A stretch of DNA of 64,000 nucleotides from Acidobacteriota bacterium (GCA_003225455.1 QIAB01000032.1:26486-90485); one strand, 5' to 3'. Shown: positions 36,898 through 43,340, numbered from the stretch's first letter. Numbers and translations: made by a program. Notes: generated from the letters alone by a model not told the origin.

Positions 36898-37206
36898 CTA
36901 TCCGCCAGCAATCGCGCCGATAATGATGAACGGCTCCTTCCCTGAGGCGACAGCATCCGGCAGGGGCGCGTCGGGCGGTTCGTGGGAGAGGTCTTCTTCG
37001 CAGGCGAAGAATCGGAGGAAGGGGCGGCGCTGTTGGGTGTCGTGCTCGCGGATGGCGCCCCGCAGCATGGGATAGCGGGCCTCGAGGGCGTCCAGCACCG
37101 ATCGCTGCGTGGCCGGGCCTGGTTTCAGATCGGTGACTTCGAGCGTCACCTCGCTGCCGACGTGAGCCAGGTTTCGGAGATGGAAGGGGAGGATGATGCG
37201 GATCAT
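36898..37206 (-). CDS. MoaD/ThiS-like ubiquitin-fold protein
   Basis: 102 residues ending in GAIAGG; the C-terminal diglycine is the residue pair adenylated and thiocarboxylated in MoaD/ThiS sulfur carriers. The N-terminus ([19 protein letters not shown]) fits the first beta-hairpin. It is longer than molybdopterin MoaD and no moa gene is nearby, so a different sulfur-carrier role or none is possible. A truncated second copy of its first 30 or so codons lies at 38922-39056. Confidence 0.82.
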
Positions 37207-37230
37207 GACGTACTCTATTTTACTTTCAAC

Positions 37231-37791
37231 CTAGAGTTCGGCAAGGCGCAGCGCTGCATTCCATTCTTTCGTCAGTTCCAGCTGGCTAATCCATTTTTCC
37301 AAATAAAGGCGGTCCAGCGAATCGCGCCGGATTTTCATGATTCCCACCGCATCCTCAATCTGCCGCTGCGAGTGCGCCAGTTTGGCCCATTCGAGCTTGG
37401 CAAGCACCACATCTTCCGCACTCGCGACAAAAAGAGACACCTCTTGCACGTGCGCCTTTTGACGGCGTCCGAACTCTTCCTGGCTGAACGCGCGGCTCTT
37501 GCGGATGATCAGATCAATCTTCCAACCAGATTCAAGATCGATCACGTTGAATGTGGATTCCCGCTTTAATGCTTCCAGCGCCGGCTCCAAATCCGCATAA
37601 TATTCCTCGCTTGGCAGGCTTCCTACGAATGTTCGCAACTGCGCGGGAGTCGCCGCGATAACCAAATCAATATCCTGGGTGGAACGCGGAGAACCGTGGT
37701 AGGCGCTGGCAAACGACCCGGTGAGCATGTAAGCCACCCCGGCTTGGTCGAGTGCCGTAGTGATCTTCTGTAACACTCGCTGGAAGCTCAT
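37231..37791 (-). CDS. Nucleotidyltransferase-fold protein (MNT/AbiEii-like)
   Basis: 186 residues. The nucleotidyltransferase motif is clear: GS at 25-26 in MLTGSFASAYHG, the paired aspartates D40 and D42 (STQDIDLVI) and a later KIDLII third carboxylate. Such domains transfer AMP or other nucleotides and are common in type-IV or MNT-type toxin-antitoxin pairs and in antibiotic modification. ATG 37791 overlaps the stop of the small upstream gene by 4 nt (ATGA). I infer a two-gene functional unit; which partner, if either, is toxic is unknown. Confidence 0.8.
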   Translation of the reverse strand: MSFQRVLQKITTALDQAGVAYMLTGSFASAYHGSPRSTQDIDLVIAATPAQLRTFVGSLPSEEYYADLEPALEALKRESTFNVIDLESGWKIDLIIRKSRAFSQEEFGRRQKAHVQEVSLFVASAEDVVLAKLEWAKLAHSQRQIEDAVGIMKIRRDSLDRLYLEKWISQLELTKEWNAALRLAEL

Positions 37792-38015
37792 TGCAAGTCG
37801 GGCAGGGGCGCAAGAAAAAATGCCAATCGCAGCAGTTCTCGGGCAATCTGCGTTTCGGGCCACTCGGGGTGGTCCCGGCGAATTCGCTCCCGGCTCAGCT
37901 CGCGTGCGAATAGGCTCATTTCGAAAGCGAGAAGGAGCCGCTGCTCTCCGGACATGGATCGTTGAATTTCGAGTTGGACCGCTTGCGCCGCGGGAGTTGT
38001 ATCGGTAACGGGCAC
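37788..38015 (-). CDS. Small helical protein coupled to the nucleotidyltransferase
   Basis: 75 residues, probably all helical: a variable start, then EQRLLLAFEMSLFARELSRE and RIRRDHPEWPETQIARELL, a pattern of amphipathic helices. It starts at GTG 38015 and overlaps the nucleotidyltransferase start (ATGA). The size, coupling and upstream position are those of an antitoxin or partner subunit. No named domain is recognised. Confidence 0.7.
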   Translation of the reverse strand: MPVTDTTPAAQAVQLEIQRSMSGEQRLLLAFEMSLFARELSRERIRRDHPEWPETQIARELLRLAFFLAPLPDLQ

Positions 38016-38158
38016 GGAAAAATGGTACCACGCGTTGCTATTAGATTCGTCCGCCGGCGTGCGGAGCGTTCGGAGGGAAGGGGAGAGCGCTGCGAATCAT
38101 GTAAGACGCCATGATGTGGAAGATAGTTCAGTCAGGACTTAACCGCGAAGGGTGACAG

Positions 38159-38255
38159 AATGCAGCCCAACGGTCCTTCGACTTCGCTCTGTATAAACTC
38201 CAGCCCGGGGGTTAGCGTCGGGAATATATAAAACGACCCGCAGGGCCGAAAGATT
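38159..38255 (-). repeat. Intergenic repeat R1, copy a
   Basis: Contains GCAGCCC, a GGGGGTTAGCGTCGGGAATAT segment split over two arms, and CCCGCAGGGCCGAAAG. The same order of words recurs at 39129-39195, and reverse-complemented at 43507-43555 and 43697-43760. It lies just past the 3' end of the vapC gene. The strand assignment is arbitrary. Confidence 0.6.
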
Positions 38256-38260
38256 AACCG

Positions 38261-38671
38261 TCACCGAAACGGATTCCGAATCGTTAGTTGCCGATTGATT
38301 ATCTGCCCGTCCTGCAAATCTTCGGAATAAAGCGTTTTAGACCCAGCCTCCAGTGCGGCCGAAGCGACCAGCGCATCGTAGATGCTATATCCATACTTTT
38401 CTGCAATGGCCAGAGCCGCTTTGTGCGTATCGAGGGAGATTGGAACAGGGTCGGGGCACAGAATGCAAATCAGATCCAGGAACTCTGTGATTTCTTTCCA
38501 GGACATCTTGAGCTTGCGTCGAGCCACCGCGGCAAATTCGTTCAATGATTGAACGCTTACAATGCCGCCGCTTGCGAGCAGCGCCTCCGCTTTGGACGCG
38601 CGGGGATCGTTCTTCGCCACCGCGTAGATCAACACGTTTGTATCGAGGAAATCTTTATTCTTAGCGGGCAT
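38261..38671 (-). CDS. vapC: PIN-domain toxin, VapC-like
   Basis: 136 residues with a PIN nuclease fold. The first acidic residue is in FLDTNVLIYA (Asp9), Glu48 lies in SLNEFAAVARRK and the C-terminal acidic pair is near IYDALVASAALEAGSKTLYSED (read as two blocks). VapC toxins cut tRNA or rRNA. ATG 38671 overlaps the end of the AbrB-type antitoxin gene by 11 nt, the usual coupled arrangement. An upstream in-frame extension is rejected because it runs through the antitoxin gene. Confidence 0.9.
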   Translation of the reverse strand: MPAKNKDFLDTNVLIYAVAKNDPRASKAEALLASGGIVSVQSLNEFAAVARRKLKMSWKEITEFLDLICILCPDPVPISLDTHKAALAIAEKYGYSIYDALVASAALEAGSKTLYSEDLQDGQIINRQLTIRNPFR

Positions 38672-38891
38672 TCGCCTCTGCCCGGTCGAATACAAACCCA
38701 GCCGGCAAGGGACGACGCAGCCGGCGTAAGCGGTCGAGGGCGCGCTGGCGGGCGGGATCGCGGCGCACTTCAAATTCCCGCGTGCTGGCGATCCTAATTT
38801 CGATTTGGTCGCCCTCTTTTAATTTGAGCGCCTCCACAACCTCCGATGGCAGCCGCACCGCCAGGCTGTTACCCCACTTTGAGACCTGCAT
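38661..38891 (-). CDS. vapB: AbrB/MazE-type antitoxin, VapB-like
   Basis: 76 residues. The N-terminal swapped-hairpin DNA-binding domain is plain (VSKWGNSLAVRLPSEVVEA, then LKLKEGDQIEIRI). The C-terminal 30 residues are Arg-rich and would wrap the PIN toxin. It precedes and overlaps vapC, so transcription and translation are coupled; autoregulation through the AbrB domain is typical of the family. Confidence 0.92.
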   Translation of the reverse strand: MQVSKWGNSLAVRLPSEVVEALKLKEGDQIEIRIASTREFEVRRDPARQRALDRLRRLRRPLPAGFVFDRAEANAR

Positions 38892-38921
38892 AATGCCCCC
38901 GATCCCAATTGATCTACATTG

Positions 38922-39056
38922 TTATTGTATATCTTTCAGCTCATGGAAGGCAATGCCCGCGAACAGCCTGGTTTCCAGATCGACGACTTCGAGCGTCACG
39001 TCGCTGCCGAGGCGCGCCAGGTTTCGGAGGTGGGAGGGGAAGATGACGCGGATCAT
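38922..39056 (-). pseudogene. Truncated second copy of the MoaD-like gene
   Basis: Reading from ATG 39056 the first 30 codons match the N-terminal region of the MoaD-like gene at 37206 (MIRVIFPSHLRNLARLGSD against [19 protein letters not shown]). After about residue 32 similarity stops and the frame ends at 38922 after 44 residues. The ubiquitin-fold core and diglycine are lost. It lies immediately upstream of the vapB start, so the TA module may have replaced the rest of the gene. Confidence 0.75.
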
Positions 39057-39128
39057 TGTGGATAACGGAAATCTCTTTGTCGTGCAGAACATTCCCGCAC
39101 AGACATCATAGCCGCAATGGGCGAATGA

Positions 39129-39195
39129 GTGCAGCCCAGCGGCGTAAGCCCTGGGTTAGCATTAGGAAATATCAAAGCCCCGCAGGGGCGAAAAA
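39129..39195 (-). repeat. Intergenic repeat R1, copy b
   Basis: GTGCAGCCCAGCGG, CCCTGGGTTAGC, then GGAAATATCAAAGCCCC and GCAGGGGCGAAA. The GCCCCGCAGGGGC core is a 5-bp stem with a 3-nt loop. The copy abuts the stop codon of the FRG gene and may act as its terminator. It marks one edge of the FRG/HEPN/TauD cassette. Confidence 0.65.
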
Positions 39196-40287
39196 TCATG
39201 CGGCTGGACCCTTTAGAGTGTCAGGTGCCTTTGATGAACCTCCCGCGTTCGCGTTTTCCTCTACTGATACAGGTTCGGCTCGAACTAGGCGCCACTTAAC
39301 CTTTACGTTCGACAGCATCTTCTTCCGCCATTCAAAGTCCGCGAGAAGAGCGGAAACGCGTTCTTCCGTTAGAAGCCTTCGGTAATCGACCATAGTTATC
39401 GTTTGCGACAATTGCTGTCTTATTTCACCAATCTGATCCGGACGAATGCCTAATGGGTCACTAGCGAAAGATTCGATTGCGCGGTCGATAAGAATAGTTG
39501 GAATTTCATGGCAACCCATAATTTCATCGGCAACCTCAGCCAACGGATCGAAGGGAAACAATGCTCTGCCGCCATCAAATTTGGAAAGAAAGTGCTCCCC
39601 GACCGATCTCTGCTGATTGAATTGCATCATCATGACGCCTGGCCAGCCGTCAAATGAATGGATAATCGGGAGCTCTGCGGTCCACGCACATTGTTCGCTC
39701 GGCCTTGGCAATAGCTGTGGTCCAAGAGGTTCGTACCTACCGAACGGATTCTCAAGACCCTTTAGCTCCACGCGATAGATAATCCCGACGCCTTCTTCTA
39801 GCGGCTCCCAACCATTGCGAGTTTCGTGGCAAGTCGCAAAAAATGCGCCTACGTTAAAATCGTCCGTTAAATCAAGGTAGCCTGTCGGAATTCCGTAGTG
39901 TTGCGCAAGAGCAATCCGATCAAGTTTAAGTTTCTGTGAGTCGGCGTGAGATGTTATCGGATGATAGTCTAGTTCGCGTGCGAACCACCACGATTGTGCC
40001 AGCCTAAGAATAACTTTTGCCTGGTCCCGAGTGGATCTTTCCCATAAGGCACCACCAGTATTAGTAGCAAGCCCACGCACAATCGAGGGCAACATGGGTT
40101 GGTATCGTTTGTTTTGGCCTCTGAAAAGTTCTGAAACAAAAGGAATCGCCCCCCAGTAGTCTCCGTCTGAGTATCCGTACCAGACCTGTTCACGCGCTGC
40201 TCGATGATTTTCAAAGTTGGGTGAAATCTCGAGGAGTGCACTCGCATTGAAAATTCGGACTTCTGGCTGGGTGGGCTCATCAGGCAT
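39196..40287 (-). CDS. FRG-domain protein
   Basis: 363 residues. The FRG domain is shown by ELFRGQNKRYQPMLPS (53-68) and the second block LAQHYGIPTGYLDLTDD (127-142), the two most conserved parts of this family. FRG proteins occur in phages, prophages and defence islands; their biochemical activity is unproven. ATG 40287 has GAGGT seven nt upstream. The gene has visibly lower G+C than flanking genes (27 of 60 at 39841-39900). It is the last gene of a minus-strand cassette with a HEPN-zinc-ribbon protein and a TauD-like oxygenase. Confidence 0.85.
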   Translation of the reverse strand: MPDEPTQPEVRIFNASALLEISPNFENHRAAREQVWYGYSDGDYWGAIPFVSELFRGQNKRYQPMLPSIVRGLATNTGGALWERSTRDQAKVILRLAQSWWFARELDYHPITSHADSQKLKLDRIALAQHYGIPTGYLDLTDDFNVGAFFATCHETRNGWEPLEEGVGIIYRVELKGLENPFGRYEPLGPQLLPRPSEQCAWTAELPIIHSFDGWPGVMMMQFNQQRSVGEHFLSKFDGGRALFPFDPLAEVADEIMGCHEIPTILIDRAIESFASDPLGIRPDQIGEIRQQLSQTITMVDYRRLLTEERVSALLADFEWRKKMLSNVKVKWRLVRAEPVSVEENANAGGSSKAPDTLKGPAA

Positions 40288-40507
40288 AAATATTACCTCG
40301 ACGGTAGAATTACCTGTGAAACCGTGGAACTTTGGCTCGTTTGGTCGAACAGTATACCAGAAGCCGGGCGGCCTTTGGATCTTGTTCTGTCATCCCTACT
40401 GGATTCACTCGTCTCGAAACTTACGGGGGCTTACGATTGGGCTGTAATGTCCCATCGCTCAAGGCCGTGCCATAACGGGCCGTTCGCGCTACATCGTTAA
40501 CCTGCAG

Positions 40508-41473
40508 TCAGTACTCATTGAAGTCATCTTCAAAGGGCGGTTCGGCTCCTTCCGCTCTAGCCTCTTCGAGTTCCTCATCAGTGTGGAGTCCAAAGAATTC
40601 AGCTACCGAAAACCGGGAGCTCGCTGTAAACGCATCACCGAGTCCACACGCGGTCAGTTTAGACAAACCTGAGATTCGCAGATTGCATGCGATGCATTCA
40701 AAGGAAGATGGCAGCATTCTCTGCTTCTGGACAACTACTTCGTCACCAACCTCCGTTGAAACATCACCATGACTAGATCCATGAATCAGCGATGGACTAC
40801 TGCATGCAGGGCATTTTGTGCGATGGCCTGCATGTCGGCTCGCCCAAGAGATCGCTTGGGCGAGCGACGCTTCCTTCTCTGCTGGGCCTTTGTTTTCCCA
40901 AACCTTCTTGTGTTTTTCGATATCCTGCTCTACTGCCTTTGCGGCCGTATCTTGGAGAGAAGCTACGAGATCCTCGGCGGCCTTTGAATTGTCGAATAGA
41001 TCACCGAGCGCTTTGCCCATGGATTCGAGTAGCACTTTGCAGCTCGCGTAGTACTGAGGAAGCCACGAGGATGTGCCAAGCCCGGCAAACGCTTCTTCAC
41101 CAGTATGAAGCTCGGCGTTTCGACGCACGGAGTGCTTTATGCATGACTCAAAGAGCTCGTTAGTGAAGCCCGGTACGATTTCCTTCAAAATCGACATTAC
41201 TTCGTTGGTAGCCACTGAAACAGGCGTAAATCCCAACGAGGTCGGCGGACGACCTAGGGCGTGATGGACGTTACGCCAATCCTTGCGGCTCGCTAACAGT
41301 GTTGGGGAAATGTGGGAGAGCGAAGCCCGGGCAATCAATTCTAGGCTCAGGCTCGCCCAGAGGCCAAACTGCCAATCGTCGGCGGTATATCGCTCCATTT
41401 CTTCGACGTAAAGAAGAGCTTTGCTAAAGAGGGCCTCCGAGGACCACGCGTGCTGGGTCGGTTTAGCAGTCAC
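40508..41473 (-). CDS. HEPN-like RNase domain with C-terminal zinc ribbon
   Basis: 321 residues from GTG 41473. The N-terminal half is helical with a LWASLSLELIARASL helix and contains the motif R-N-A-E-L-H (118-123), exactly the RNxxxH form of the HEPN ribonuclease active site. The C-terminal part has a zinc ribbon: CPAC (221-224) and CIAC (260-263). The tail is very acidic. HEPN nucleases are common effectors in toxin-antitoxin and phage-defence systems. The start overlaps the TauD gene end by 11 nt and has GAGGTG four nt upstream; GTG 41497 is an alternative. The family is otherwise not recognised. Confidence 0.65.
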   Translation of the reverse strand: MTAKPTQHAWSSEALFSKALLYVEEMERYTADDWQFGLWASLSLELIARASLSHISPTLLASRKDWRNVHHALGRPPTSLGFTPVSVATNEVMSILKEIVPGFTNELFESCIKHSVRRNAELHTGEEAFAGLGTSSWLPQYYASCKVLLESMGKALGDLFDNSKAAEDLVASLQDTAAKAVEQDIEKHKKVWENKGPAEKEASLAQAISWASRHAGHRTKCPACSSPSLIHGSSHGDVSTEVGDEVVVQKQRMLPSSFECIACNLRISGLSKLTACGLGDAFTASSRFSVAEFFGLHTDEELEEARAEGAEPPFEDDFNEY

Positions 41474-42167
41474 TGAACACCTCAGATAAATAGACACGCT
41501 CGATGTGCCGAGTTATGCCCCGAGCAGGAACTTGGCTTCGTCCATGAAGTATCCGCCAGTTATCGATAAGGAGTATATCTCCTGGTTCTTGGAGCTGTAT
41601 CCTGATCATTGCCTCCTTCCATGCAGAGTCAGACATTGCACGCTTAAGGGCCAACGCGTGCCTGTTGAGGGGCTCAAGGAAAATCGGATCCCAACGAAAT
41701 ATCTGCTTGTCGCAATGAGAAGACATTGCACGAACCAAACCCGAGCTCCCATAGCGGCGCTTTCGGGCTCTGAGCACGGCCTTCTGCAGTACAGCCGCCC
41801 CGACTACACCGACTACGTCCGCGCAAGAGAGTAAATTGGTGAAAACATCTTCCGTTCCGACCAGACATCGCAGAAGAAGGTAATGAGGCGGGAGTATCCA
41901 ATGAGCGAGGTCTGTGTGGAGCGGAAAGAGATCAACGCCATAGTTCCCACTGTATTGATTCTTCCCAACCTCACTTATCTCTCGCGGTCTCAAAGACTGT
42001 ACAGTGGGGATTCCACTTGTCGGAAGGATTGTTTCGATATCGACAATTGTGCCTAGACGACGCGCGACCTCAACGGTTGACAAATCGGGCAGATGTATCC
42101 TCTGGACAACAAAACCGTCCCGTTGCACAGTCGCGAGAATGTTATGCTCGAGAGCAATCACGACCAC
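41463..42167 (-). CDS. TauD/TfdA-like Fe(II)/2-oxoglutarate oxygenase
   Basis: 234 residues. The iron triad is visible: His84 and Asp86 in PLHTDLAHW and His208 in DNWRILHGRS, followed by Arg220, placed to bind 2-oxoglutarate. The N-terminus resembles the cofactor-side fold of TauD-like enzymes. The substrate is unknown. GTG 42167 immediately follows the stop of the BNR-repeat gene (TGAGTG), so initiation could be coupled to it. It is shorter than classical TauD (about 280 residues). G+C is 27 of 60 at 41941-42000, below the neighbours. Confidence 0.8.
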   Translation of the reverse strand: MVVIALEHNILATVQRDGFVVQRIHLPDLSTVEVARRLGTIVDIETILPTSGIPTVQSLRPREISEVGKNQYSGNYGVDLFPLHTDLAHWILPPHYLLLRCLVGTEDVFTNLLSCADVVGVVGAAVLQKAVLRARKRRYGSSGLVRAMSSHCDKQIFRWDPIFLEPLNRHALALKRAMSDSAWKEAMIRIQLQEPGDILLIDNWRILHGRSQVPARGITRHIERVYLSEVFSDC

Positions 42168-43340
42168 TCACCCCAGCGTCTGCACCTCCACACTAAGCAC
42201 GGCCGGCAGATCGCGCACAATCGGATTCCAGCTATCGCCCGCATCGGCGGAGGCGTACACCTGGCCGCCGGTGGTCCCGAAATAAATTCCGCATTTATCT
42301 AAGGAGTCCACGGCCATGGCGTCGCGCAGCACGTTTACGTAGCAGTCTTTTTGCGGCAAGCCTTTCGTCAACGGCTCCCACTCGTTGCCTCCGCTGCGGC
42401 TGCGGAAAACCCGCAGCTTGCCTTCGTGCACGAAGTGTTCGGAGTCGCTCTTGATGGGAACGACATAAATCGTCTCCGGCTCATGCGCATGAACGTCAAT
42501 CGCGAAACCGAAGTCGGTAGGCAGGTTGCCGCTGACTTCTTTCCAGTTGTCGCCGGCATCGTCGGAGCGCAGCACGTCCCAGTGCTTCTGCATGAAGAGC
42601 ACGCCCGGGCGTGACGGATTCATAGCGATGTGGTGAACGCAGTGGCCGATTTCGGCGTTCGGGTCGGGGATGTATTGCGAACGCAGGCCGCGGTTGATCG
42701 GTTTCCACGATTTGCCGCCGTCATCGGTGCGGAATGCGCCTGCGGCCGAGATGGCGATCCAAATCCGCTGCGTATTGCTGGGATCAAGAATAATCGTGTG
42801 CAGGCACAGACCGCCCGCACCCGGCTGCCACTTGGGGCCGGTGCCGTGGCCGCGCAGGCCTGGGAGTTCCTGCCAGTTCTCGCCGCCGTCGGTCGAGCGG
42901 AAGATGGCTGCGTCTTCCACGCCGGCGTATACCGTGTCGGGATCAGTGAGCGACGGCTCCAGATGCCACACCCGCTTGAACTCCCAGGGATGCTGCGTGC
43001 CGTCGTACCACTGATGCGTGGTGAGCGGCGCAGCAGCCGCGTCGTAGGCGAACTTGTTGCTCGCGGACTTGGGAGGACCGGGTTCAGGCGGTTGCCCAGG
43101 GGGAGTTCCGGGCTGATGCCAGGTTTTGCCGCCATCATCGGAGCGCTGGATGATCTGGCCAAACCAATCGCTGGTCTGCGAGGCGTAGATACGATTGGGA
43201 TCAGCAGGCGATCCCTTGAGGTGATACATCTCCCAGCCGGCAAAGTGCGGGCCGCTGACGTCCCATTTTTGGCGCTTGCCGTCTGAAGTTAGGATGAATG
43301 CGCCTTTGTGTGTACCTGCTAGAACGCGAACTGTGGACAT
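42168..43340 (-). CDS. BNR/Asp-box beta-propeller protein (sialidase/VPS10-like)
   Basis: 390 residues with at least five Asp-boxes of the form S-D-G-G-x-T/N/S-W ([40 protein letters not shown]), one per blade of a propeller. These are seen in sialidases, VPS10 domains and photosystem assembly factors; no sialidase active-site Arg triad can be assigned with confidence, so glycosidase activity is doubtful. There is no signal peptide. ATG 43340 has AGGAGGG nine nt upstream, rejecting a 60-residue extension into the repeats. Confidence 0.85.

Follow-up and report, generated by a model that had tools for sequence, protein, structure and literature searches.

A TauD-like oxygenase gene paired with a HEPN-zinc-ribbon gene: a possible mobile conflict module of bacteria

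In a 64,000-nucleotide stretch of DNA from an Acidobacteriota bacterium (QIAB01000032.1:26486-90485; hereafter "the window"), three minus-strand genes lie side by side between positions 39057 and 42167, encoding a TauD-like oxygenase, a protein with hallmarks of a HEPN ribonuclease (RNase) and of a zinc ribbon, and an FRG-domain protein. The locus raises the question of which of these genes belong together and what they might accomplish jointly. The original prediction, made from the window alone, was that of one linked three-gene system, with the HEPN RNase as effector and the other two proteins as sensors or modifiers.

Gene calls recover all three predicted genes, flanked by a BNR-repeat gene and an AbrB/PIN pair. 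The stop of the oxygenase gene and the GTG start of the HEPN gene overlap by 11 nt, and 220 bp separate the HEPN from the FRG gene. The lower G+C content that had been noticed is real but modest, amounting to 0.515 over positions 39200-42170, which is the lowest 3-kb stretch in the window, as compared with a window mean of 0.559 and 0.598 in the BNR gene. The genes and their predicted functional sites are the following:

41463-42167, minus strand: TauD-like oxygenase gene, first gene of the pair; GTG at 42167, 234 aa as called
41910-41918, minus strand: HxD half of the oxygenase iron site, H84-T-D86
41544-41546, minus strand: distal iron-site histidine H208 of the oxygenase, followed by R210, R220 and R224
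40508-41473, minus strand: HEPN gene, starting with GTG; protein of 321 aa with the zinc ribbon at its C-terminus
41327-41341, minus strand: E45xxxR49, the HEPN Ex3[KR] motif, in helix 34-55
41105-41122, minus strand: R118-N-A-E-L-H123, the predicted RNase motif, closing helix 105-123
40685-40813, minus strand: zinc-ribbon cysteines C221/C224 (CPAC, 221-224) and C260/C263 (CIAC, 260-263)
39196-40287, minus strand: FRG-domain gene, a neighbour that is not conserved as part of the unit

The first protein of the pair, whose family has a size of about 220 aa, is a TauD/clavaminate-synthase-like Fe(II)/2-oxoglutarate oxygenase. It matches Pfam TauD with 51.3 bits (cut-off 27; 1.9e-13), and searches of NCBIfam and Pfam returned TauD-related families only, with no nucleic-acid-binding or DNA-binding domain recognised. 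The AF2 model (pLDDT 94.4) has the jelly-roll fold of this class, and Foldseek aligned it with AsnO, KDO1, clavaminate synthase and NapI at E-values of about 1e-12 to 5e-11, best with AsnO (1.3e-12); OrfP is also among the closest solved structures, all of which are free amino-acid hydroxylases. The predicted HxD...H iron site is intact: H84 and D86 are kept in 92/93 homologues, the lone exception being truncated by its contig, H208 is kept in all except one truncated sequence, and the C-terminal arginines R210, R220 and R224 are near-invariant. Compared with clavaminate synthase, AsnO, KDO1 and NapI, with which it shares fold, iron site and C-terminal arginines, the oxygenase is about 100 residues shorter, forms a separate subfamily and is encoded beside a HEPN gene.

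The second protein (family size about 320 aa) belongs to no family in Pfam, PADLOC or NCBIfam, a sequence search of the PDB gave no match identifying it, and a search of a viral structure library gave none at all; PADLOC-DB 2.0.0 holds no model for either protein of the pair at E <= 1. Its identity as a HEPN protein is nevertheless well supported. HEPN domains are defined by an Rx4-6H motif, its arginine followed by a polar residue (N, D or H), that is located at the end of helix 3 and enters the helix 3-4 loop, and they have a recurrent upstream Ex3[KR] feature (PMC3710099). All of this is found here. The predicted RNxxxH motif at residues 118-123 is exact when counted from the GTG start, with N119 as the polar residue, and in the AF2 model (pLDDT 90.6) helix 105-123 ends at H123, the next helix spanning residues 134-151. 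The residues R, N, E, L and H of R118-N-x-E-L-H123 are 100% conserved in 95 homologues, a degree of conservation that lies far beyond chance; E45 is invariant and residue 49 is always R or K in untruncated homologues. Structure models were based on the window and its genome-contig relatives. Among the Foldseek matches in the PDB listed at probability >= 0.5, all are HEPN proteins, namely SO_3166, Csm6, two HepT structures and AF_0298 (probability 0.60-0.80), but E-values are weak (0.36 or worse). The CPAC and CIAC pairs are likewise present as predicted, and every homologue extending that far has all four cysteines, which, together with the beta-rich C-terminus of the model, fit a zinc ribbon.

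We infer that the HEPN protein is an RNase. In the Legionella HEPN-MNT system, RNase activity in vitro was hardly affected by the exchanges R98A and H103A (PMC11586414); hence, the Rx4H motif is no proof of catalysis. Given that the active sites are near-invariant in both the oxygenase and the HEPN protein, catalysis appears to be under selection in both, which for the oxygenase suggests more than a scaffolding role.

The linkage of these two genes is strict. HEPN homologues were sampled by tblastn, which yielded 44 plasmids, and by a pattern scan, which yielded 116 genome-contig stretches, 80 of which were kept, plus 6 viral contigs. With profiles built here, an oxygenase gene was found directly upstream and on the same strand in 93/95 HEPN loci, the exceptions being a contig-edge fragment (L021) and a HEPN gene lacking its first ~96 residues (L073); eight additional plasmid loci carry both genes. 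The oxygenase gene comes first throughout, and a 4-bp overlap is the commonest arrangement (48/95 loci). The association also holds from the side of the oxygenase. In 294 Acidobacteriota and 299 Pseudomonas genomes (the latter being the genus of locus L013), all six strong matches to the oxygenase profile (129-258 bits) lie beside a HEPN gene and no solitary member of the subfamily (>= 129 bits) was found, while the remaining TauD proteins of these sets reach no more than about 60 bits and none of the five that were checked has a HEPN neighbour. Divergence in the two families is tightly correlated (mirror-tree r = 0.936, n = 84; maximum of 1000 permutations, 0.32), which speaks for joint inheritance and not for contact, since common operon ancestry alone would yield a high value. 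The unit consists of two genes, oxygenase and HEPN.

The FRG protein itself was correctly recognised (Pfam FRG, 42.3 bits, cut-off 25, 1.5e-10) and also matches the PADLOC candidate model PDC-S15 (9e-12), but it is no component of this unit. The closest relative of the window locus, from Acidobacteriaceae bog_209 (L012; 82% HEPN identity), aligns with the window at the DNA level only across the pair (40512-42131) and has no FRG gene beside it; this places the FRG gene outside the unit. No ORF closely related to the window FRG protein was found in other pair loci, and among 291 neighbour proteins Pfam FRG can have no more than a single match on each side of the pair, as families matched twice or more were all listed and FRG is absent from them. 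In Halomonas sp. M20, a gene immediately upstream of the pair (L066:4005-5309) encodes a distant FRG-domain protein whose N-terminal region differs, the only such case outside the window; the relative L067 has no FRG gene at the corresponding place. Conversely, the sole homologue of the window FRG protein in 294 Acidobacteriota genomes (G092) has no pair beside it. Thus, the trio does not recur, and of the linked system originally proposed, the HEPN identity, the intact oxygenase iron site and the obligate oxygenase-HEPN linkage stand while the FRG component falls.

What remains in favour of a single system of all three proteins is that their genes adjoin in the window, have a low G+C content in common, and are part of one insertion separating genes that are adjacent in relatives, and that FRG proteins are phage-defence candidates themselves. 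In six relatives (L114, L116-L120), the BNR gene is followed by a MoaD-like gene within ~0-160 bp, whereas in the window the BNR stop (42168) and MoaD (36898-37206) are ~5 kb apart. The cargo between them comprises the TauD, HEPN and FRG genes and, in addition:

38973-39056: incomplete duplicate of the MoaD 5' end
37231-38900: VapBC-like genes of AbrB type and with a PIN domain, together with a gene for a DUF6036-like nucleotidyltransferase

The relatives L113 and L115 have different cargo at this junction, for which reason it (36898-42168) looks like an insertion hotspot; in L115, the BNR 3' end is duplicated. Set against the window-like DNA of L012, which covers the pair only, the scarcity of FRG among neighbours, the G092 homologue without an adjoining pair and the 220-bp gap between the FRG and HEPN genes, the three-gene reading is largely refuted and very improbable. 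The FRG gene is a neighbour here, accidental in the best explanation.

The pair is widespread and patchy. Going by record titles, the hosts of its 95 HEPN homologues belong to six bacterial phyla or more (Pseudomonadota, Acidobacteriota, Bacteroidota, Verrucomicrobiota, Planctomycetota and Desulfobacterota, including several metagenome-assembled genomes, MAGs), and only 3/297 Acidobacteriota genomes contain it. Conjugative plasmids are frequent carriers (32/44 plasmids with HEPN were typed as such), with 22/44 being Agrobacterium records of mostly near-identical plasmids, and in G163 the pair lies between genes that, as read from their translations, are relaxase-like and coupling-protein-like. 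Several genomes or plasmids of Pseudomonas, Shinella and Halomonas carry intact pairs. The HEPN protein was unmatched in phage records, and the DNA of the Cedecea pair was unmatched in E. coli genomes. Neighbours include many defence-type genes, coding for GajA/GajB (Gabija; four loci of one lineage), SduA (Shedu), PtuA (Septu), AriA, BrxL, McrBC, AbiV, AbiH, AbiJ, a DpnII/MboI-type nuclease and VapBC, as well as integrases, a TrlF ATPase and DNA polymerase IV/V; no conserved biosynthetic genes were found among them. The term "defence island" is descriptive of this setting.

Several known systems resemble the pair in part. Closest in logic is HEPN-MNT (type VII; MntA-HepT, SO_3166-SO_3165 and the Legionella system), in which an enzyme antitoxin modifies a HEPN toxin (PMC11586414). 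Adjacent HEPN and enzyme genes and Rx4H are common to both, as is, by prediction, the HEPN fold. The partner here, however, is a TauD-like 2-oxoglutarate/Fe oxygenase and not an MNT nucleotidyltransferase, which keeps the pair out of that class, and its HEPN protein has roughly double the length, owing a zinc ribbon and a helical linker to none of the HEPN-MNT kind. In HEPN-MNT the enzyme neutralises the toxin, and the oxygenase may do likewise. With the stand-alone abortive-infection HEPN proteins ApeA, AbiV, AbiJ and DUF4145, the family shares the HEPN domain and defence-island settings but no detectable relation at the sequence level; HHalign against single ApeA and AbiV HEPN sequences found none, single-sequence profiles making this a weak test. 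Zinc-ribbon fusions are also known from DUF4145 families (PMC3710099). The layout, and only the layout, is that of type II toxin-antitoxin systems, i.e., an overlapping two-gene operon with the antitoxin-like gene first, but a small DNA-binding antitoxin is lacking. PADLOC PDC-S15 candidates are matched by the neighbouring FRG protein, while elsewhere only the distant L066 gene accompanies the pair. In the text of the HEPN survey, which reports no oxygenase partner, the words "TauD" and "dioxygenase" are absent (PMC3710099), and no description of HEPN paired with a TauD/2-oxoglutarate oxygenase was found in the open-access literature. The pair looks like an undescribed toxin or anti-phage unit.

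Strict pairing together with two active sites apparently under selection favours an enzyme-controlled RNase module. We give a little under an even chance to a mobile two-gene conflict module with the HEPN RNase as effector and the oxygenase as its controller, most likely a restraining one. The HEPN-zinc-ribbon protein would cleave host or phage RNA, so that growth stops, and the co-translated oxygenase would be its dedicated enzymatic controller, probably keeping it inactive via hydroxylation of the HEPN protein or of its bound ligand; the RNase would be set free by phage attack, or once the oxygenase or its inputs (2-oxoglutarate, iron, oxygen) are lost. We likewise infer the RNase target and the anti-phage role. 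The proposal that the oxygenase gates the RNase, by hydroxylating it or by making its ligand, with activity tied to oxygen, iron and 2-oxoglutarate or to phage interference with these, is tentative and falls somewhat short of an even chance. Restraint seems somewhat likelier than activation, given the order of the genes, their coupling and the precedent of HEPN-MNT. Restraint by protein hydroxylation is disfavoured, however, by the closest solved oxygenases, which act on free amino acids and not on proteins, and an essential antitoxin role by plasmid L142, a single case in which the 5' part of the oxygenase gene is frameshifted and the HEPN frame is open. If one were to guess from the amino-acid-hydroxylase ancestry, the target might be a side chain, possibly on the HEPN protein.

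The closeness to free amino-acid hydroxylases speaks for an oxygenase that activates, and the L142 frameshift sits more easily with it; in that case, infection would lead to a hydroxylated amino acid or small molecule, or to a modified HEPN protein, that turns the RNase on, in parallel with the nucleotide signals of CBASS or Thoeris; the zinc-ribbon/beta C-terminus could bind such a ligand. Yet no ligand-binding sensor domain was recognised in the HEPN protein, and the oxygenase-first, translation-coupled order resembles antitoxin-toxin operons, and we judge activation unlikely. The combination of a modifying enzyme and a nuclease is also a known logic, and zinc ribbon and HEPN domain fit RNA binding, which would suit an oxygenase that hydroxylates an RNA or translation component and a HEPN protein that cleaves or spares the modified form in the manner of restriction-modification; the relatives of the ~220-aa oxygenase are, however, amino-acid hydroxylases and not AlkB-type nucleic-acid enzymes, and it has no recognised nucleic-acid-binding domain, making this improbable. 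We are equally doubtful about a metabolic operon, in which the oxygenase would make a hydroxy-amino acid to be bound or regulated by a HEPN-like partner devoid of RNase activity. The oxygenase fold family is metabolic and the catalytic motif is missing from some HEPN domains (PMC3710099), but here the Rx4H and Ex3[KR] residues are completely conserved, the pair is patchy and mobile, and conserved biosynthetic neighbours are lacking.

Should the reading of an oxygenase-controlled RNase be true, this would be the first toxin-antitoxin or anti-phage system with an oxygenase hydroxylating a HEPN RNase or making its ligand. The known enzyme partner of HEPN toxins, in HEPN-MNT, controls by nucleotide transfer; an oxygenase partner would add new chemistry to toxin control and tie bacterial immunity to oxygen and central metabolism.

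Some pairs are decayed or variant. In L004, the oxygenase gene is interrupted by a stop codon and the HEPN gene has an insertion adjoining the RN motif; on plasmid pRSB223 (L143:4151-5902), HTD of the oxygenase has become HVE and the HEPN gene is frameshifted ahead of the zinc ribbon. Four pairs come from MAGs whose lineages are typically anaerobic (L057, L060, L064, L065; Desulfobacteraceae, Desulfobacula, Syntrophaceae, Syntrophales), which is awkward for an oxygen-dependent enzyme unless these are misbinned or oxygen-exposed. L008 and L092 have their pairs near DNA polymerase IV/V (dinB, umuC-like) genes. A ~680-aa HATPase_c_3 protein is encoded directly after the pair at L025:7005-9041 and at L027, L031, L032, L036, L037 and L042; these seven loci form one sub-lineage, and the gene was dropped as a general third component, being possibly a lineage-specific third gene. 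A TrlF-family AAA-like ATPase gene was likewise dropped, as it adjoins the pair, on either side, on four plasmids only (L136, L137, L138, L140); in three of these, a GIY-YIG nuclease gene comes next.
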